DNA from: Polaribacter sp. Hel1_33_78
Lineage (GTDB): Bacteria; Bacteroidota; Bacteroidia; Flavobacteriales; Flavobacteriaceae
Assembly (NCBI RefSeq): GCF_900106075.1
Contig: NZ_LT629794.1
Coordinates: 2,811,501 to 2,875,500 of the forward strand
Length of the DNA stretch: 64,000 bases
Direction: 5' to 3'
Shown: positions 6,911 through 59,780 of the stretch, piece after piece
How the letters are laid out: each line of letters starts with the position of its first letter
Numbering within the stretch: the stretch's first letter is position 1
Program-made: the position numbers and the translations under genes
Notes under the pieces: model-generated
Database searches by the model: none
Told to the model about the DNA's origin: nothing
Seen by the model: the letters and a program-made list of their open reading frames with translations, nothing else

Positions 6911-7993
6911 TTATCCGTTAATAATCTTTTCTTGATGATTGATCGATTCCTGGTGAATTGCTTTAAACATTTTTAAAACAAACTCTTCACTTAGACCTCT
7001 ACTATCCCCTTCTAAAACCATGTTACCTAAAATTTCGTTCCAACGTCTAGACTGTAAAACAGCCACGTTTTGATCTTTCTTTAAAGCTCCAATTTTATCG
7101 GCAACTTGCATTCTTTTGCCTAACATCTCAATTAACTGATCATCTACAACGTTAATTTGTGCTCTCAAATTCTCTAAAGGCTCTCTGTAACTAGAAGCCG
7201 TTTCAGTAGTTTTTTTGATTTTTAATTCATCCATAATAGACTTTAGCTTTGTTGGCGTAACTTGCTGAGCAGCATCACTCCAAGCATTTTCAGGATCGTA
7301 ATGTGTTTCAATCATTAAACCATCAAAATTTAAATCTAAAGCAACCTGAGAAATATCTTGAATCATTTCTCTATTCCCAGTAATGTGAGAGGGATCGTTG
7401 ATTAAAGGTAAATCTGGAAATTTATTTTGAAACTCAATAGCCAATTGCCAGTTAGGATTATTTCTGTACTTCGTTTTTTCATAAGTAGAAAAACCTCTAT
7501 GAATTGCTCCTAAATTTTTAATACCTGCTGTATATAATCTTTCAATACCCCCTAGCCATAAAGCTAAATCTGGATTTACTGGATTTTTAACCAACACAAT
7601 TTTGTCTGTTCCTGCCAAAGCATCTGCAATTTCTTGCATAATAAAAGGTGAAACTGTAGAACGAGCACCAATCCATAATAAATCTACATCATTTTCGATC
7701 GCTAGTTTTACATGCGCTGCATTGGCAACTTCTGTACAGGTTTTCATCCCTGTTTCTTCTTTTACTTTCTTTAACCATCTTAGACCAATTTCACCAACAC
7801 CTTCAAACATTCCTGGTCTTGTTCTTGGTTTCCAAATTCCCGCTCTAAAATAGTTTACATCAGAATCTTTTAATTCGTGTGCGATTTTTAAAACCTGTTC
7901 TTCGGTTTCTGCACTACAAGGCCCTGCTATTACTAGTGGATGCGCTAAATTCATATCATCCAACCATGTTCTTAATTCTTTTGTATTCTTCAT
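6911..7993 (-). CDS. Bifunctional DAHP synthase / chorismate mutase
   Basis: This 360-residue protein fuses two aromatic-pathway enzymes. Residues about 1-260 are a KDO8P-synthase-like (type I-beta) DAHP synthase, shown by GPCSAETEEQ near residue 24, the GIWKPRTRPG loop and NDPSHITGNRE. Residues about 268-355 are an AroQ-type chorismate mutase (REPLENLRAQINVVDDQLIE, with KIGALKK). It would supply both the first step of the shikimate pathway and the chorismate-to-prephenate step. It is the last gene of the attenuated operon, 20 bases after tyrA. In homologues the mutase domain mediates allosteric feedback on the synthase; this is inferred here. Confidence 0.93.
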   Translation of the reverse strand: MKNTKELRTWLDDMNLAHPLVIAGPCSAETEEQVLKIAHELKDSDVNYFRAGIWKPRTRPGMFEGVGEIGLRWLKKVKEETGMKTCTEVANAAHVKLAIENDVDLLWIGARSTVSPFIMQEIADALAGTDKIVLVKNPVNPDLALWLGGIERLYTAGIKNLGAIHRGFSTYEKTKYRNNPNWQLAIEFQNKFPDLPLINDPSHITGNREMIQDISQVALDLNFDGLMIETHYDPENAWSDAAQQVTPTKLKSIMDELKIKKTTETASSYREPLENLRAQINVVDDQLIEMLGKRMQVADKIGALKKDQNVAVLQSRRWNEILGNMVLEGDSRGLSEEFVLKMFKAIHQESINHQEKIING

Positions 7994-8013: not shown

Positions 8014-8865
8014 TTAGTTTATGCCGTTTAAAATTTGTTTTATATAATTTGTGTTCTCCATTTCTTTAAAAATTTCAGAGAAATTATCTTGTTCCATCAA
8101 CTCTTTAAATTGTTGCAAATTATGGATGTATTCTTCTAACGTTTCTATTACGTTTTCTTTATTTTGTTTAAAAATTGGCGTCCACATTGCTGGCGAACTT
8201 TTTGCCAAACGCACAGTTGATTCAAAACCTGAACCTGCCATATCAAAAATATCGCGTTCATTTTTTTCTTTATCAATTACTGTTTTACCTAACATAAATG
8301 CACTAATGTGTGATAAGTGCGAAACATACGCAATATGTTTATCATGAGAAACAGGATCCATATAACGAATACGCATTCCAATTGCTGTAAATAACTGCAA
8401 TGCTTTTTCTTGAAGCTTAAAAGTTGTTTTTTCTACTTCACAAATAATATTGGTTTTTCCAATGTATAAGCCAGAAATTGCCGCTGTGGGCCCAGACTTT
8501 TCTGTCCCTGCAATTGGGTGACATGCTAAAAAATTTCTTCTTTTTGGATGATGTTCAACTGCTTTACAGATTGCCTCTTTTGTTGATCCTGCATCTACTA
8601 CCAAACCTGTCTCAGAAATTTTATCTAAAATCGTTGGTAATAATTTTACCGTGGCATCTACCGGAATTGAAACAATTACTAAATCTGCATTCTTTATATC
8701 ATCTAAAGTTGCTTTCTTATCTATTAAATTTAATGTTAAAGCCTTATTTAAGGTTTCATCTTTTCTGCTAATTCCGTGAATAATAGCATTTGGATTGTTT
8801 TTTTTAATATCAATAGCAAAACTACCACCAATTAAACCAATACCAATCATGTATATATTTTTCAT
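8014..8865 (-). CDS. tyrA: Prephenate dehydrogenase
   Basis: A 283-residue NAD(P)-dependent TyrA. The Rossmann motif GIGLIGGSFA lies at residues 7-16, and the catalytic-domain motifs HPIAGTEKSGP (about 116) and HDKHIAYVSHLSH (about 178) are present. It oxidatively decarboxylates prephenate to 4-hydroxyphenylpyruvate for tyrosine synthesis. No ACT domain is present, so feedback control must come from elsewhere, for example the attenuator. Its ATG overlaps the stop of the aminotransferase gene by four bases (ATGA), indicating translational coupling. Confidence 0.94.
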   Translation of the reverse strand: MKNIYMIGIGLIGGSFAIDIKKNNPNAIIHGISRKDETLNKALTLNLIDKKATLDDIKNADLVIVSIPVDATVKLLPTILDKISETGLVVDAGSTKEAICKAVEHHPKRRNFLACHPIAGTEKSGPTAAISGLYIGKTNIICEVEKTTFKLQEKALQLFTAIGMRIRYMDPVSHDKHIAYVSHLSHISAFMLGKTVIDKEKNERDIFDMAGSGFESTVRLAKSSPAMWTPIFKQNKENVIETLEEYIHNLQQFKELMEQDNFSEIFKEMENTNYIKQILNGIN

Positions 8866-10004
8866 ATTCTTGCTATTGCTTCTTTAATTATTTCTGAAGT
8901 TACACATAACGAAAAACGTATATACCCTTCTCCTTGGCTGCCAAAAACAGTTCCTGGAGTTATAAAAATATCTTTATCGTATAAAATTGCATCTGTAACT
9001 ACTGTAGATTTTTGCCCTTCTGGGATTTTTGCCCAAACAAATAACCCTGTTGAATTTGTATCGTAAGTAGCGTTTAATTTATCTGCTAATTGCCAAACTA
9101 AATTTCTACGTTCTTCATATATTCTATTTTGAGCTAAAAACCAATCATCAGATAATTGAAGGGCTTCTATGGCTCCTTTTTGAATTCCGTAAAACATCCC
9201 AGAATCCATATTACTTTTTACTTTTAAAATCTCATTAATGAAAGTTACATTTCCTAAAACCATACCAACTCTCCAGCCAGCCATATTAAAAGTTTTGCTT
9301 AACGAATTTAATTCTAAAGCAATATCTTTTGCGCCTTCAACTTCTAAAATACTAATAGGATTGTCATTTAAAATAAAACTATAGGGATTATCATTTATAA
9401 TTAAAATCTGATGTTTTTTACCAAAAGCGACTAACTTTTCAAAGGTCTCTATCGTTGCATTTGTTCCTGTTGGCATATGGGGATAATTCACCCACATAAT
9501 TTTCACCTCTGTTAAATCTTGACTTTCTAATTCCTCAAAATTTGGCTGCCAATTATTTTCGTCACATAAATTATAAAAAAGAGGCTCTGCACCTACTAAT
9601 TTTGTAACAGAAGTGTAGGTAGGGTATCCAGGATTGGGAATTAACACTTTATCTCCTTCATTTAAAAAAGCCATAGAAATATGCATGATTCCTTCTTTGC
9701 TTCCCATTAAAGGCAACACCTCATTTTCTGGATTAACAGCTACACTAAACTTATTTTTATAAAACTCAGCAATTGCATTTCTTAATTCTGGTAAACCCTG
9801 ATATGATTGATATTTATGCGCACTCACATCATTCAAGCTTCCTTGAATAGCCTCTAAAACTTGCACCGGTGGTTGTAAATCGGGTGAACCAATTCCCATA
9901 TTTATAATTGGTTTTCCAGCAGCGACTAACCCCCTAACTTCTCTCAATTTTTTAGAGAAATAGTATTCTTGCACTGTTTCTAATCTTTTAGCTGGTTTAA
10001 TCAT
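8862..10004 (-). CDS. PLP-dependent aminotransferase of the aromatic operon
   Basis: A 380-residue class I/II (fold-type I) aminotransferase. MGIGSPDLQPP near residue 37, NPGYPTY near 123 and the PLP-lysine motif LNSLSKTFNMAGWRVGM (Lys about 239) are clear. Sitting between pheA and tyrA it most likely transaminates phenylpyruvate and 4-hydroxyphenylpyruvate, or prephenate; the exact substrate is inference. It overlaps both neighbours by four bases, so the three genes are translationally coupled. Confidence 0.9.
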   Translation of the reverse strand: MIKPAKRLETVQEYYFSKKLREVRGLVAAGKPIINMGIGSPDLQPPVQVLEAIQGSLNDVSAHKYQSYQGLPELRNAIAEFYKNKFSVAVNPENEVLPLMGSKEGIMHISMAFLNEGDKVLIPNPGYPTYTSVTKLVGAEPLFYNLCDENNWQPNFEELESQDLTEVKIMWVNYPHMPTGTNATIETFEKLVAFGKKHQILIINDNPYSFILNDNPISILEVEGAKDIALELNSLSKTFNMAGWRVGMVLGNVTFINEILKVKSNMDSGMFYGIQKGAIEALQLSDDWFLAQNRIYEERRNLVWQLADKLNATYDTNSTGLFVWAKIPEGQKSTVVTDAILYDKDIFITPGTVFGSQGEGYIRFSLCVTSEIIKEAIARI

Positions 10005-10828
10005 TTTCTACCATTTTTATAGGCTCCTAAAATTTTGAATTCTTCTGCCATTATTTCAATAATTTTTACTGCTTTTTGATATTCTTCGTATTCATCAAAA
10101 GTTACATCTACAAAAAATGAATATTTCCAAGGCTTCTCTATCACCGGCAGTGACTGTATTTTCGTTAAGTTCATTTTACAATCGCTCAAAACGTTTAAAA
10201 TTGCTGCTAAACCTCCTCTTTTATGGTTTAATTGAAATTTTAATGAAGATTTATTAATTTGATCAATTCCATTACTTGGCTCATGTGTTTGCACGATGAC
10301 GAATCTTGTAGCATTATCTTTTATGGTTTGAATTTCATCCTCTATTATTTCTAAGTCAAAAATTTCTGCGGCAATTTTTGGCGCAATTGCTGCAATACCC
10401 TCTAAAGTTCCTTTTGCAATTCTTTTCGCAACTTCTGCCGTATCTACATCTTCTACTAGCTTAATATGAGGATGTTTTTTAAAAAACTCCTTACATTGTA
10501 ACAATGCCATTGGATGCGACCAAACTTCTTTAATATCTTTTATCTGCTGACCTGGTAATGCCATTAAATGATGGTGAATATTTAAATACTCTTCACCTAC
10601 AATATGCAAATTATTACTATCTATTAGCGCATAATTTGGTATAATCGAACCTGCAATTGTATTCTCTAAAGCCATTACTCCATACGTTGCAGAACCATCT
10701 AATAAACTATCTACCAATACATCAAAAGACATGCATTCTTTTAATTGAACTGCTGTTCCGTAAAAGTCGCGTGCAACTTTATGGTGATTTGAGCCTTCTG
10801 CTCCTTGTATTGCAATAATTTTGTTCAT
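10001..10828 (-). CDS. pheA: Prephenate dehydratase
   Basis: The 275-residue protein has a prephenate dehydratase domain (about 1-180) with the catalytic TRF motif in DNATRFVIV, and a C-terminal ACT domain (about 190-272). It converts prephenate to phenylpyruvate. The ACT domain usually carries an ESRP motif that binds phenylalanine; here the corresponding sequence is KIQSLPV, so binding may differ. It is the first structural gene of the operon and follows the attenuator terminator by about 10 bases, which places the terminator directly in front of its start. Confidence 0.94.
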   Translation of the reverse strand: MNKIIAIQGAEGSNHHKVARDFYGTAVQLKECMSFDVLVDSLLDGSATYGVMALENTIAGSIIPNYALIDSNNLHIVGEEYLNIHHHLMALPGQQIKDIKEVWSHPMALLQCKEFFKKHPHIKLVEDVDTAEVAKRIAKGTLEGIAAIAPKIAAEIFDLEIIEDEIQTIKDNATRFVIVQTHEPSNGIDQINKSSLKFQLNHKRGGLAAILNVLSDCKMNLTKIQSLPVIEKPWKYSFFVDVTFDEYEEYQKAVKIIEIMAEEFKILGAYKNGRK

Positions 10829-10835
10829 TTATATC

Positions 10836-10910
10836 AAAAAAAAAGTCTCGAATTAAATTCGAGACTTTATATTATGTGAATGTTTCTTAACAACATGATA
10901 CAAAGTCTCT
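10836..10910 (-). promoter_or_regulatory. Phe/Tyr attenuator: terminator and antiterminator
   Basis: On the minus strand, segment B (10856-10868, AAAGTCTCGAATT) and segment C (10842-10854, AATTCGAGACTTT) form a perfect 13-bp hairpin followed by a T run ending at 10836, a strong intrinsic terminator. Upstream segment A (within 10901-10910, GAGACTTT) is complementary to the first eight bases of B, so A:B pairing would prevent B:C. Segment A lies inside the last codons of the Phe/Tyr leader peptide. Ribosome stalling in the aromatic codons would leave A free (read-through); completion of translation would cover A (termination). Confidence 0.85.
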
Positions 10911-10967
10911 TCTTTTATTGTAAAAATAAAAGTATACATAGAAACGAGTAAAATTGTTGTTTAACAT
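10887..10967 (-). CDS. Phe/Tyr-rich leader peptide of the aromatic operon
   Basis: A 26-codon frame from ATG 10967 to TAA 10887. Its middle reads F-T-R-F-Y-V-Y-F-Y-F-Y, so 9 of the 11 residues from Phe6 to Tyr16 are bracketed by and mostly composed of Phe and Tyr. It is followed by a basic stretch (NKRRD) and ends SCC. The start is preceded by AGAGAA in the transcript and lies about 20 bases after the predicted transcription start. The aromatic run, the stop codon placement and the downstream attenuator match the architecture of classical pheL/trpL leaders. It was too short for normal gene calling. Confidence 0.85.
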   Translation of the reverse strand: MLNNNFTRFYVYFYFYNKRRDFVSCC

Positions 10968-10991
10968 TTTGTTCTCTAATGATTGAAAGAA

Positions 10992-11022
10992 CAAATCTAG
11001 AGATTATATTGGGATATACAAA
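10992..11022 (-). promoter_or_regulatory. Bacteroidota-type promoter of the aromatic operon
   Basis: On the minus strand the sequence is TTTG (11019-11022), a 19-base spacer, then TAGATTTG (10992-10999). This is an exact match to the phylum's housekeeping promoter pattern TTTG-N19-TAnnTTTG. Transcription should start about 5-7 bases downstream, just before the leader peptide. Confidence 0.85.
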
Positions 11023-11312
11023 TATTATTAAAAAAGTTTACAAATTTTTATGAAATTTTCAAAATGAGTTCATTATTTTTATCAAAATTCAACTTATATT
11101 GGTTTATATTTAAATAAATGTAATACTATTTAAAGAAAAAAAAGTATCAAATAACGGTAACTTTAAAGTAGATATAAGTTGCATTGCATCTTTCTTAGCA
11201 GCTGAATACTCTTGAAACTACTTTACAATCTATAAAGAATGAGTGTGGATCGAAAGAATCTTAGAAAATTAGTTTTTGTATCTTTATCTACTTAAATTTT
11301 AAAGCGACTGAA

Positions 11313-11678
11313 TTGGAATTAAACGTATTTAATAAACCTTTAGAGAGCTGTTGCCAAAAACCAGCAACGGGTTATTTTAGAGATGGCTTTTGCAGAACAG
11401 TTTCTCATGATGTGGGCACACACACGGTTTGCGCAATTGTTACTCAAGAGTTTTTAGACTATTCTGCATCTAAAGGAAATGATTTAATGACGCCAATTCC
11501 GTATTGGAATTTTCCTGGTTTACAACCTGGTGATCAATGGTGTTTATGTATTTCTAGATGGTTACAAGCAGAAAAAGTTGGAAAAGCACCTTTGATAAAG
11601 TTAGCTGCTACACATATAAAATCGTTACAATACACAAGTTTAGAAGTTCTTGAAAAATATGCTTTCATTAAACAGTAA
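11313..11678 (+). CDS. DUF2237 family protein
   Basis: A 121-residue cytoplasmic protein with the DUF2237 signature: NVFNKPLESCC near the start, GFCRTVSHDVGTHTVCA (about 29-45), and GLQPGDQWCLCISRWLQA (about 69-86). Its function is unknown; the conserved Cys and His residues suggest metal or redox chemistry, which is speculation. The start is a TTG, chosen because homologues begin a few residues before NVFNKPLE; no ATG fits. It is directly followed by a membrane-protein gene with no gap. Confidence 0.85.
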   Translation: MELNVFNKPLESCCQKPATGYFRDGFCRTVSHDVGTHTVCAIVTQEFLDYSASKGNDLMTPIPYWNFPGLQPGDQWCLCISRWLQAEKVGKAPLIKLAATHIKSLQYTSLEVLEKYAFIKQ

Positions 11679-28735: not shown

Positions 28736-28823
28736 GCGTTTCCTTTCAGGTCGTGCTTTTTACTATATCTTTTTGTGCTGCTTTCCCTCAGCAGAAAAAG
28801 GATGCCGTTGCCATCACTAACGC
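28736..28823 (-). repeat. Dispersed structured intergenic repeat, copy 2
   Basis: On the minus strand it reads GCGTTAGTGATGGCAACGGC, ATCCTTTTT, a hairpin around CTGCTGAGGGAAAGCAG, AAAAAGATATAGTAAAAAGC, ACGACCT and AACGC. Nearly the same blocks occur at 59703-59780. It lies between metH2 and metF. Confidence 0.7.
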
Positions 28824-28827
28824 TTGC

Positions 28828-31503
28828 TTACTCTTCCGCTAAAGTTGGATGTAACCACTTTCTTGCTTTCTCTTTTGTAATCCCTTTTCTAACTGAATAG
28901 TCTGTAACTTGGTCATCTGTAATTTTTCCTAAACCAAAATATTTTGCTTCTTTATTTGCAAAATAATATCCTGATACAGCCGCAGCTGGCCACATAGCCA
29001 TACTTTCAGTCAGCTGAACTCCTATTTGATTCTCAACATCTAATAAACGCCAAATAGTTTCTTTTTCTAAATGATCTGGACACGCAGGATACCCAGGTGC
29101 AGGTCGAATTCCTTTATAACTTTCTTTAATTAATTCGTCATTGGTTAATGTTTCACCAGAAGCATACCCCCAATGTTTTGTTCTAATTTGTTTGTGTAAA
29201 TATTCTGCAAAGGCCTCCGCAAATCTGTCTGCAATTGCCTGCGCCATGATACCATTGTAATCATCTTCTTTTGCCCTATACTTATCTGCTAATTCTTGTG
29301 CACCAAAAATGGCAACACAAAAAACTCCTATATAATCTGTTTTCTGACTTTCTTTTGGCGCAATAAAATCGGCTAATGCAATATTCGGAACTCCTTCTCG
29401 TTTTTTTAATTGCTGACGTAAGGTTCTAAAAACAGCAATTTCCTCTCCTTTTTTTTGCACAGAAATATCATCTTCATGAATTGAATTTGCCTCGAATAAT
29501 CCAAAAATTGCTTTTGGCTTTAAAAGTTGTTTGGCAATGATTTCTTTTATCATCACCTGCGCTTCTTCATACATGATAGAAGCTTGCACTCCTACAACCT
29601 TATCTGTTAAAATTTCTGGAAATTTACCATGCAAATCCCAACTTCTAAAAAAAGGACTCCAATCGATAAACGGCAGTAATTCTTTTAAACTTAACTGTTC
29701 TAAAGTCTGAATTCCTACTTCTTTTGGTTTTATAATTTCTGAAGAATTCCAATCAATCTTATACTTTTTCTTACGGGCTTGTTCAATAGAAATGTATGCT
29801 TTTTCTTTTCCTCGTTTTAAAAACTTGTTTCGAAATTCGTCATAATCTTTCTTCAATTTAGCCACATACGCATTCGACGACTTTTTGTTTAATAAATCAC
29901 CTACGACTGTGACTGCCCTAGAAGCGTCATTGACATGAACCACCGCATTTTTATATTGAGGATCAATTTTTACCGCAGTATGCGCTTTCGAGGTAGTAGC
30001 GCCACCAATCAATAAAGGCACTTTAAACTCTTGACGCTCCATTTCCTTCGCCAAATAAACCATTTCATCCAAAGAAGGGGTGATCAATCCGCTTAGCCCA
30101 ATAATATCTACGTTCTCTTTTTTTGCAGCTTCAATGATTTTTTCTGGAGGAACCATAACCCCTAAATCTACAATTTCATAATTATTACATCCTAAAACGA
30201 CACTCACAATATTTTTTCCAATATCGTGCACATCGCCTTTTACTGTAGCCATTAAAACTTTACCCAAAGCTTGTTGCTTTTCTCCTTTTTCGGCTTCAAT
30301 AAAAGGGTTTAAATAAGTTACGGCTTTTTTCATTACACGAGCCGATTTCACTACTTGCGGTAAAAACATTTTTCCTGCGCCAAATAAATCTCCCACCACA
30401 TTCATACCAATCATTAAATGCCCTTCTATCACTTCAATTGGCTTATCAGCTAGTTGCCTTGCAACTTCTACATCGTCAATTATAAAGGCATCTATTCCTT
30501 TCACTAAAGCGTGCGTGATTCTTTCTTGTAACGTATTTTCTCTCCAAGACAAATCCAATCCTTTTTCAACTTTCGACCCTTTTACGGTTTCAGCAAAATC
30601 TAATAATCGTTCAGTAGCATCTTCTCTTCTGTCTAAAATAACATCTTCAACATGTTCTAATAAATCCTTAGGTATATCATCGTAAATTTCTAAAAGTGCC
30701 GGATTTACAATTCCGATATTCATACCAGCTTGAATCGCATGAAATAAAAATACGGAGTGCATGGCTTCGCGAACTCCATTATTTCCGCGAAACGAAAAAG
30801 AAACATTACTAACTCCTCCGCTTACAGAAACATTTTCAAGATTTTGCCGAACCCATCTTGTTGCCTCAATAAAATCGAGTGCATTTCTGCGATGTTCATC
30901 CATACCCGTAGCTACCGGAAATATGTTTAAATCGAAAATAATATCTTCTGACGGAAAGCCAACTTTATGAACTAACACATCATAAGAGCGTTGTGCAATT
31001 TCTATTCTTCTGGCATAGTTATCTGCTTGGCCTACCTCATCAAAAGCCATTACGATAACTGCTGCTCCGTACCGCTTTATTTGTTTTGCTTCCCAAATAA
31101 ATTTTTCTTCACCTTCTTTTAAGGAGATAGAGTTTACAATACATTTACCCTGAACTACTTGTAAACCAGCATTTATAATTTCCCATTTAGAACTATCAAT
31201 CATAATTGGAACTCTGCAAATATCTGGTTCAGCAGCAATCAAATTCAAAAAACGAATCATGGCTTCTTTTCCATCGATCAATCCATCATCAAAATTAATG
31301 TCTATAATTTGTGCACCTCCATCTACCTGATGACGAGCAATAGCTAATGCTTCATCAAATTTTTCTTCTTTAATTAATCGTAAAAACTTGCGAGACCCAG
31401 CTACATTCGTTCTTTCTCCTACATTTATAAAATTGCTGTTCTCATTTAAAACCAAAGGTTCTAAACCAGACAGTCTCATGTATTTTGTTTGCTTTATCTT
31501 CAT
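28828..31503 (-). CDS. metH: Methionine synthase, folate/cobalamin/activation domains
   Basis: The 891-residue protein corresponds to the C-terminal three quarters of MetH. Residues about 20-280 are the pterin-binding domain ([15 protein letters not shown]). Residues about 320-580 are the cap and B12 domain with the cobalamin-ligand motif GDVHDIGKN (His near 425), [11 protein letters not shown] and [11 protein letters not shown]. Residues about 600-885 are the AdoMet reactivation domain ([28 protein letters not shown]). It needs the separately encoded homocysteine-binding protein directly upstream, 10 bases away. The split form is usual in this phylum. Confidence 0.95.
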
Positions 31504-32562: not shown

Positions 32563-32683
32563 GAAAGGTGTTTTTTTCGCTGTTATCTGTCAAGTAAAAA
32601 CTTGTAGAATGTAGCACCTTTCTCAAAAAATGAGAGGTTGCCAAGGCTTCATCGGGTCTAATCCCTCTGCCTTTCGTGATAAC
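32563..32683 (-). promoter_or_regulatory. SAM-I (S-box) riboswitch upstream of metH
   Basis: The minus strand contains the S-box core in order: TTATCACGAAAGGCAGAGGG, ATTAGACCCGATGAAGCC, TTGGCAACCTCTC and GGTGCTACATTCTAC. It is closed by P1 between gttatc (32582-32587) and gataac (32678-32683). Immediately downstream, CACCTTTC (32563-32570 on this strand) is perfectly complementary to GAAAGGTG (32615-32622) in the aptamer, which could serve as the alternative pairing. No strong T-tailed terminator is visible. Confidence 0.92.
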
Positions 32684-32763
32684 GTAATCAATAAGTTTAT
32701 GAACTAAGCTACAAATAAACACATTATTTTTTTATTTGTAAAATTATTAAGTTTAATAATCTA

Positions 32764-50440: not shown

Positions 50441-50575
50441 ATTTTCCAGAACAGGAAAATTCTTTTTTGTTATCTATCCAATTATAAAATAATTGAGTAG
50501 AATTTAGCACCTTCTTTATTTCTAAAGGGTTGCTAAGGCTTCATTGGGTCTAATCCCTACACCTTTCTTGATAAC
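50441..50575 (-). promoter_or_regulatory. SAM-I (S-box) riboswitch upstream of metY
   Basis: Minus strand core: GTTATCAAGAAAGGTGTAGG, GATTAGACCCAATGAAGCC, TTAGCAACCCTTT and AGAAGGTGCTAAATTCTAC. P1 pairs gttatc (50469-50474) with gataac (50570-50575). Downstream, attttcc (50441-50447) and ggaaaat (50454-50460) form a hairpin followed on this strand by CCTATTTTCTT, a plausible but weak terminator. Confidence 0.93.
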
Positions 50576-50605
50576 ATTTCAATAAGTTATTGAACTTTGT
50601 GAGTG

Positions 50606-50803: not shown

Positions 50804-50893
50804 CTTTTGTAATCCAATTGAGAGGAAAAATTTGAACTGATTGCAACCTCATAAAAAAAATGCTAAAGCAGTAATTATATACTTCTTTTAGCA
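50804..50893 (+). promoter_or_regulatory. SAM-II-type riboswitch candidate upstream of metK
   Basis: A -7-like element TACTTTTG (about 50804-50811) precedes GAGG (50822-50825), ATTTGAACTG, ATTGCAA, CCTC (50847-50850), ATAAAAAAAATGCTAAAGCA. P1 pairs GAGG/CCTC, and loop ACTG (50836-50839) can pair with CAGT (50869-50872) as an H-type pseudoknot; TTGCA, ATAAA and GCTAAA match conserved SAM-II blocks. A downstream TTTAGCA (50887-50893) is complementary to TGCTAAA (50861-50867) and could compete. Class assignment is from memory of the consensus. Confidence 0.7.
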
Positions 50894-59687: not shown

Positions 59688-59702
59688 TTTATGTTTAATT
59701 TT

Positions 59703-59780
59703 GCGTTAGCGATTGCAATGACATCCTTTTATGAAGGTTGAATAAAAGATATAATGAAAAGCGCGACCTTGTGTAACGCC
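59703..59780 (+). repeat. Dispersed structured intergenic repeat, copy 3
   Basis: It reads GCGTTAGCGATTGCAATGAC, ATCCTTTT, a variable loop, AAAAGATATAATGAAAAGCG, CGACCT and AACGC. This closely matches the minus strand of 28736-28823 and more loosely 6794-6903. It ends 7 bases before the stop of the carbonic anhydrase gene. Confidence 0.7.

Follow-up and report, generated by a model that had tools for sequence, protein, structure and literature searches.

The aromatic amino acid operon of Polaribacter sp. Hel1_33_78 is very probably headed by a ribosome-mediated transcription attenuator that senses charged tRNA-Phe and tRNA-Tyr. The putative attenuator lies upstream of pheA on the minus strand of the window, which is the whole 64,000-nucleotide stretch of DNA that was analysed and to which all coordinates refer. 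If this reading is correct, the main aromatic amino acid operon of the Flavobacteriaceae has a regulator in which one leader would sense two amino acids (often three) and command both branches of the pathway as well as its entry step. The parts of the element, their conservation and covariation, their spacing, and the correspondence of the codons to the pathway are all evident from the sequence and its comparison among relatives.

The pheA leader and its operon

The operon that would be controlled consists of four genes. Their order is as claimed in an earlier note on this DNA, and Pfam matches and gene junctions, with 4-nt overlaps at the first two and a 20-nt gap between tyrA and the DAHP synthase gene, agree with it.

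10001..10828, minus strand: pheA, prephenate dehydratase, the first controlled gene (PF00800, E 3e-54; ATG at 10828)
8862..10004, minus strand: class I/II aminotransferase (PF00155), overlapping pheA by 4 nt
8014..8865, minus strand: tyrA, prephenate dehydrogenase (PF02153 and PF20463; no ACT match)
6911..7993, minus strand: DAHP synthase fused to chorismate mutase (PF00793 and PF01817)

The aminotransferase, tyrA and DAHP synthase genes follow pheA in the same order at 76 of 80 named loci. TyrA consists of PDH_N and PDH_C domains, plus weak general NAD-binding matches, and the C-terminus of PheA is ACT-like at 22.8 bits, under the Pfam cut-off of 27. The absence of an ACT domain from TyrA had been suggested to be a consequence of the attenuator; this is not supported, as no comparison ties the two.

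On the minus strand, the elements are arranged in the order promoter, leader peptide, A, B, C with U-tract, and pheA, and a divergent gene at 11313 bounds the leader region on the side away from pheA. The promoter, the 26-codon leader and the A, B and C hairpins were each located where the earlier note had placed them, and the aromatic run FYVYFYFY is indeed present in the leader.

11022-11019, minus strand: −33 promoter element TTTG, from sequence and conservation in relatives
10999-10992, minus strand: −7 promoter element TAGATTTG, 19 nt spacer from TTTG
10967-10887, minus strand: leader peptide ORF MLNNNFTRFYVYFYFYNKRRDFVSCC, 26 codons plus stop, kept in relatives
10920..10943, minus strand: aromatic sensing run FYVYFYFY, residues 9-16 of the leader
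10940..10945, minus strand: outer part of segment 1, GUUUCU, pairing with AGAGAC of segment 2 in the window fold and the genus consensus
10926..10932, minus strand: 5' arm of the segment 1 inner stem, CUUUUAU, with a U-A or C-G closing pair in 94/94 Polaribacter-type leaders
10912..10918, minus strand: 3' arm of the inner stem, AUAAAAG, partner of CUUUUAU
10905..10910, minus strand: outer 3' arm, AGAGAC, overlapping segment A (2)
10909-10898, minus strand: segment A (2), DNA GAGACTTTGTAT, RNA GAGACUUUGUAU, in codons 20-24, with 12 pairs to B
10872-10861, minus strand: segment B (3), DNA ATATAAAGTCTC, RNA AUAUAAAGUCUC, the antiterminator partner of A
10868-10842, minus strand: B:C (3:4) intrinsic terminator AAAGTCTCGAAT-TTA-ATTCGAGACTTT, a 12-pair hairpin
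10836..10841, minus strand: U-tract of the terminator (T6), directly 3' of the hairpin

The A:B and B:C pairings are mutually exclusive. A terminator scan of 10600-11300 returned the B:C hairpin alone (listed on both strands), versus 0.1 expected in shuffles, and the leader RNA fold has a z of −3.5, with none of 200 shuffles equally stable. Computed energies are −17.2 kcal/mol for the full A-to-B hairpin, −13.9 kcal/mol for the terminator, and −6.3 kcal/mol for the 1:2 region. For an RNA that begins at A, the chosen fold is A:B. The 12 A:B pairs alone amount to −12.2 kcal/mol and lose to the terminator, and the preference for A:B therefore rests on a small hairpin in the A-B loop. Folded as a whole and without a ribosome, the leader adopts 1:2 plus the terminator. 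The three states expected of an attenuator are thus predicted by the computed folds and energies.

This small hairpin, AUGUU...AACAU, occupies 10897-10873 within the antiterminator loop and lies partly past the leader stop; it was recognised by eye in several Polaribacter-type leaders.

A scan of the window region for sigma-70-type promoters returned 7 sites versus 5.3 expected, indicating that the promoter match by itself is weak evidence, and support for the putative promoter comes from conservation. The motif TnTG-N18-20-TAnnTTTG is found at 37 of the 53 same-genus loci with a leader and at 57 of the 80 named loci, and TAnnTTTG no more than 60 nt from the leader ATG at 41 and 70 of these, respectively, compared to 6.5% of shuffled 60-nt windows. 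The predicted promoter is of the Bacteroidota type. Of 178 leaders, 124 have an A at −3 of the start and 130 an A at −6, versus 31% A further upstream, and the window leader has an A at both positions. Bacteroidota mRNAs are described as lacking Shine-Dalgarno sequences, and initiation in Flavobacterium johnsoniae as favoured by A at −3 and −6, in a report that also names BioProject PRJNA564991 as the source of RNA-seq and ribo-seq data for this species (PMC6847099).

Conservation and covariation among relatives

Relatives were drawn with the pheA protein, which has matches in 72 of 97 genomes and in 366 of 395 family genomes. The resulting 138 pheA upstream regions comprise 54 of the window genus, 28 from the family search (two also of the genus), 40 from additional members of the family, and 16 from elsewhere in the order, the latter fetched out of 18 matches. 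The 66 family loci outside the genus are the best-ranked of the 366 genomes with a match, and the sample consequently leans to pheA genes nearer the query. A locus was counted when an ATG-initiated ORF of 12-45 aa, containing 5 or more F/Y within 10 codons, was followed by a terminator hairpin with a T-tract. This arrangement was found upstream of pheA at 127 of the 138 loci (genus 53/54, family search 27/28, further family 40/40, other families 7/16), whereas dinucleotide shuffles yield 0.0-0.3 per 138, which rules out chance. At eight loci this rule finds no leader (L040, L082, L090-L092, L096-L098), and at three it finds a leader without a terminator (L087, L093, L094). Leader and terminator are present at all 80 of the named loci, which come from the GTDB species collection and are mainly from Polaribacter and Tenacibaculum, but also from Algibacter, Flavivirga, Flaviramulus and Wocania. 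Eleven further loci of the class gave 7 passes (4/4 in g136, a genus of the family, 3/6 in other families, 0/1 in family f5), with L250-L252 and L255 failing. An element common to all pheA genes was ruled out, as leader and terminator are missing from all 30 control pheA loci, of which 29 belong to other classes of the phylum and one, L245, to family f5 of the order, both with windows fixed to the domain start and with windows of 400 nt before the earliest ATG of the open frame.

A covariance model built on 76 leaders, R1, extends this distribution. At a match threshold of E ≤ 0.01, it matches 184 of 199 family genomes and 172 of 185 genera, where the 184 matches include at least one that is false (L306) and two that precede other genes (L303 and L305). 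Seven of the 15 family genomes missed by R1 are also without a pheA match (G120, G144, G145, G160, G161, G165, G179), and the other eight do have one. Among the 28 R1 family loci examined (L279-L306), pheA lies directly downstream in 24; at L299 the start of pheA is cut by the contig end, and L303 and L305 precede genes for a DAHP synthase and a phenylalanine hydroxylase, respectively. In its own genome, the pheA site is found at 6e-9 and the next best match at 0.08; further copies were rejected there, as the next two matches (L272 and L273) are without a leader. More than one R1 match occurs in 20 family genomes. None of the seven second matches examined (L307-L313) combines a terminator with a leader of at least 4 F/Y per 10 codons, and these second matches were therefore treated as chance. 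No plasmid-borne copy was found among 72,556 plasmid records.

At least two F and at least two Y codons occur in 177 of the 178 leaders (mean 5.9 Phe and 3.4 Tyr), a set that had been selected for F/Y, although 127 of the 138 unselected upstream regions passed the rule. A Trp codon is present in 119 of the 178 leaders and absent from the window leader, and charged tRNA-Trp is probably also sensed by the leaders that hold one, which make up two thirds of those of the relatives.

The cores of A, B and C covary by clade. They read GAGAC/GTCTC/GAGAC in Polaribacter types, GGGAC/GTCCC/GGGAC in many other family members, and CGGAAC/GTTCCG/CGGAAC in L039, and the A/B cores are AGCGGGA/TCCCGCT in L088 (similar in L086) and AGAGCGGTC/GACCGCTTT in L095. 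The A:B score of leaders with their own B averages 16.53; reassigning B at random among the 177 distinct leaders lowers the mean to 13.76 (sd 0.19), and none of 2000 deals scored as high; the deals ignore relatedness among leaders, and the GAGAC-GGGAC switch of the A/B core occurred once on the tree built. An A:B score of at least 14, counted at positions picked for best pairing, is reached by 92.1% of 127 leaders versus 10.1% after shuffling of the 5' part. Alignment A2, which omits eight of the 127 leaders without a good A or very diverged (L078, L081, L089, L095, L104, L123, L131, L133) and thins the remaining 119 to 76, gives a column-wise A:B count of 62.5% paired, a low value taken to be an artefact, as the A columns of the genus and of the GGGAC clade are shifted by one against each other (A2, A3). 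For B:C, 95.8% of the cells on A2 are paired, with changes on both sides in 7 of 10 pairs. None of 500 shuffles reaches the B:C covariation score, and the count of further pair types, as high in 70 of 500 shuffles, is unremarkable. The co-changing cores, the scores and the folds bear out the mutually exclusive A:B and B:C hairpins claimed previously. The comparison that had been proposed as a test thus came out in favour of the attenuator, with the aromatic run kept in relatives and the pairings kept with compensatory changes.

There is a third pairing, 1:2, in which GUUUCU pairs with AGAGAC around an inner stem, CUUUUA[U/C]...[A/G]UAA[A/G]AG, within the aromatic codons. Among the 94 Polaribacter-type leaders, 53 close the inner stem with U-A and 41 with C-G, with no mismatches. 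As the two are never mixed, a synonymous change of a Tyr codon accompanies an Asn/Ser exchange three codons further along. The tree of 138 pheA genes requires at least 13 changes of this pair, and the changes were concordant in 7 of 7 independent pairs on well supported branches (sign test 0.016). The third pairing corresponds to the 1:2 (pause/protector) hairpin of the classical model, a correspondence supported in the genus; in the GGGAC clade the evidence for 1:2 is weak.

Of the 171 leaders that have a good A, 166 show a gap of 8-11 nt (median 10) between the last aromatic codon and A, as does the window (10 nt). The stop codon, in contrast, begins at positions that range from 29 nt downstream to 8 nt upstream of where A begins. 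In E. coli toeprints, the leading edge of a stalled ribosome lies ~12 nt past the first base of the codon in its A site. Taken together, this reach and the spacing indicate that A begins just where a stalled ribosome would end, and, with early and late stops alike, that a terminating ribosome would cover most of A. We infer ribosome positions from this ruler-like spacing, and they match what the model needs, consistent with the earlier proposal that A, just past the aromatic run, is freed by a stalled ribosome and covered by a terminating one.

Proposed mechanism and alternative explanations

Translation of the leader, stalling, termination, and the relative timing of ribosome and polymerase are steps that we infer from these features, as follows. 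RNA polymerase would start near 10985, and a ribosome would begin the leader peptide. When Phe or Tyr is short, the ribosome would stall in the aromatic run with its front edge just before A, leaving A free to pair with the emerging B, which would block the B:C terminator and allow the four-gene operon to be transcribed. When both Phe and Tyr are plentiful, the ribosome at the stop codon would cover A, B:C would form, and transcription would end at ~10836. In the absence of a ribosome, segment 1 could hold A in the 1:2 pairing, which would likewise allow the terminator to form. The putative attenuator stands as the earlier note had described it, including the logic resembling that of enterobacterial pheL/trpL, which the relatives support, with the amendment that the 1:2 hairpin was missing from that account. 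Its title, “translational attenuator”, needs correction to translation-mediated transcription attenuation.

The literal meaning of that title, that the hairpin acts on translation by hiding the pheA start, has the geometry of the window on its side, where the pheA ATG lies 8 nt past the last T of the U-tract. This proximity is not general, as in relatives such as L033-L035 a distance of 190-215 nt separates the leader start from pheA, with the terminator far upstream of the gene; the U-tract after the hairpin also argues against it, though the rule itself required one, and we consider an action on translation highly improbable. Terminators with alternative hairpins occur in several kinds of attenuator, and a riboswitch or a protein-bound attenuator, in which the RNA itself or a protein is the Phe/Tyr sensor and the small ORF has no role, would be compatible with the observation that in L014, L017 and L020 the sequence past an early stop codon remains alike. 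Such a sensor fits poorly with the F/Y codons of 177 of the 178 leaders, with the Tyr runs found before phenylalanine hydroxylase genes (see below), and with a run-to-A spacing that suits a ribosome, making it very unlikely.

The peptide itself might be thought to be the functional product, that is, a small aromatic-rich (membrane) protein, with the hairpin merely the terminator of its gene, given that the ORF is short, conserved and hydrophobic and has a good start context. Against this, the leaders of the 94 Polaribacter types exist in 30 short (≤20 aa) and 64 long forms, with at least seven switches on the tree, and the C-terminal codons overlap A and co-change with B and C, so that a role for the peptide as a protein is scarcely credible. 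A ribosome-mediated transcription attenuator thus remains the preferred reading. Attenuation of this kind needs the leading ribosome and the polymerase to be in step, and a switch kept by most of the family genomes sampled would therefore make their coupling directly testable, in a phylum that initiates translation without Shine-Dalgarno pairing.

Related leaders and known systems

Leaders for other amino acids are found in the same genome: a Trp leader, MKKQHNIWWWSSLRK, with a terminator before trpE (L260), a His leader, MNFIQLHHHHFYNCSQAI, with a terminator before hisG (L262), and an Ile/Val leader, MKKQIINIISIIIVIVISAT, before ilvD, with the terminator ~200 nt upstream of the gene (L263). 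The best A:B candidates in these own-genome leaders are weak for trp and ilv. In G126, a genome without a pheA match, the leader MTNNNTWWSNSKFYLKR, with Trp-Trp, and a terminator precede a DAHP synthase gene (L303), as if the sensor had changed upon loss of the Phe/Tyr branch. Phenylalanine hydroxylase converts Phe to Tyr. The seven best hydroxylase loci among the matches listed (299 family genomes) encode short forms of ~247 aa, and short forms with weaker scores may lie outside these matches. Before four of the seven, from two genera, there is a leader whose Tyr run (four or five residues) contains no Phe, followed by a terminator (L315, which needs a GTG start, L317, L318, and L320, which has one in-frame stop in the match). 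None of 16 long-form hydroxylase loci examined has a leader by the rule used. These comparisons support the notion that the codon content of the putative leaders follows the pathway, and the Tyr-run leaders before phenylalanine hydroxylase represent a natural experiment on codon specificity. We know of no earlier Tyr-specific ribosome-mediated attenuator, and the Tyr sensors of the hydroxylase genes would be the first.

Before the gene for a fused aspartokinase/homoserine dehydrogenase (L267), seven Thr codons in a row are followed by Leu-stop, as in a Thr leader; this run was read by eye, and no in-frame ATG was seen.

Ribosome-mediated attenuation is long established from trpL and pheL, and ilvL and thrL sense several amino acids. 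Enterobacterial pheL has 1:2, 2:3 and 3:4 pairings and runs of Phe codons, and senses Phe alone. The T-boxes upstream of aromatic genes in Firmicutes sense the charging of tRNA-Tyr, tRNA-Phe or tRNA-Trp at transcription, but bind the uncharged tRNA directly and do not require a leader peptide. Like pheL (Phe_leader), the leader described here precedes pheA, shows the same three pairings, and contains Phe codons; unlike pheL, it alternates Phe and Tyr, often includes Trp in relatives, and heads a four-gene operon. Sensing of tRNA charging at transcription would be common to T-boxes and the pheA leader, but the latter would use a peptide ORF, and no T-box Rfam match was found in the window or the pheA leader. 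With trpL, hisL, ilvL and thrL of enterobacteria it would share the working principle, and with ilvL and thrL also the sensing of multiple amino acids, while the four differ in amino acids and lineage, Bacteroidota mRNAs being without Shine-Dalgarno sequences (PMC6847099).

The pheA leader was rejected as a member of a curated Rfam family, as every score falls under the respective cut-off: Phe_leader (RF01859) gives 22.6 bits versus a gathering cut-off of 55 (E 0.11), and Bacteroid-trp (RF01692) gives no match up to E = 10. The trpE leader of the same genome (L260) scores 48.6 bits with Bacteroid-trp, for which the gathering cut-off is 49. Bacteroid-trp is the nearest relative in kind. It is from the same phylum and likewise has a short ORF with codons for the regulated amino acid and then a terminator, but differs in amino acids, operon and sequence. 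Vitreschak and co-workers, in a comparative study of 2004 in FEMS Microbiol Lett, reportedly gave some candidate attenuators in Bacteroidetes/Chlorobi. Bacteroid-trp, which Rfam describes as “Bacteroidete tryptophan peptide leader RNA”, is among the RNAs in Table 1 of Weinberg 2010 (PMC2864571). Naville and Gautheret 2010 state that they knew of no leader-peptide system demonstrated beyond Proteobacteria and Actinobacteria prior to the one they describe in Firmicutes (PMC2965389), and a Bacteroides transcriptome paper notes that long 5' UTRs contain small ORFs “reminiscent of leader peptides” (PMC7366714). Based on sequence comparison, the view is well supported that the predicted pheA attenuator is a widespread new case of an old mechanism, new with respect to Rfam; we do not claim its absence from print.

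It is somewhat more likely than not that Bacteroidota possess a complete set of leader-peptide attenuators (Phe/Tyr/Trp, Tyr alone, Trp, His, Ile/Val, and perhaps Thr) that work without Shine-Dalgarno initiation, including the Tyr sensors before phenylalanine hydroxylase. If true, the persistence of this set would indicate that transcription and translation are closely timed in Bacteroidota.

Other structured RNAs are also present in the window. A SAM riboswitch at 50467-50577 (minus strand) and a SAM-II riboswitch at 50816-50876 (plus strand) lie 238 bases apart on opposite strands, and a further SAM riboswitch is located at 32580-32685 (minus strand). Two Flavo-1 RNAs are found at 28745-28828 (minus strand) and 59698-59772 (plus strand), and a third near trpE in L260.
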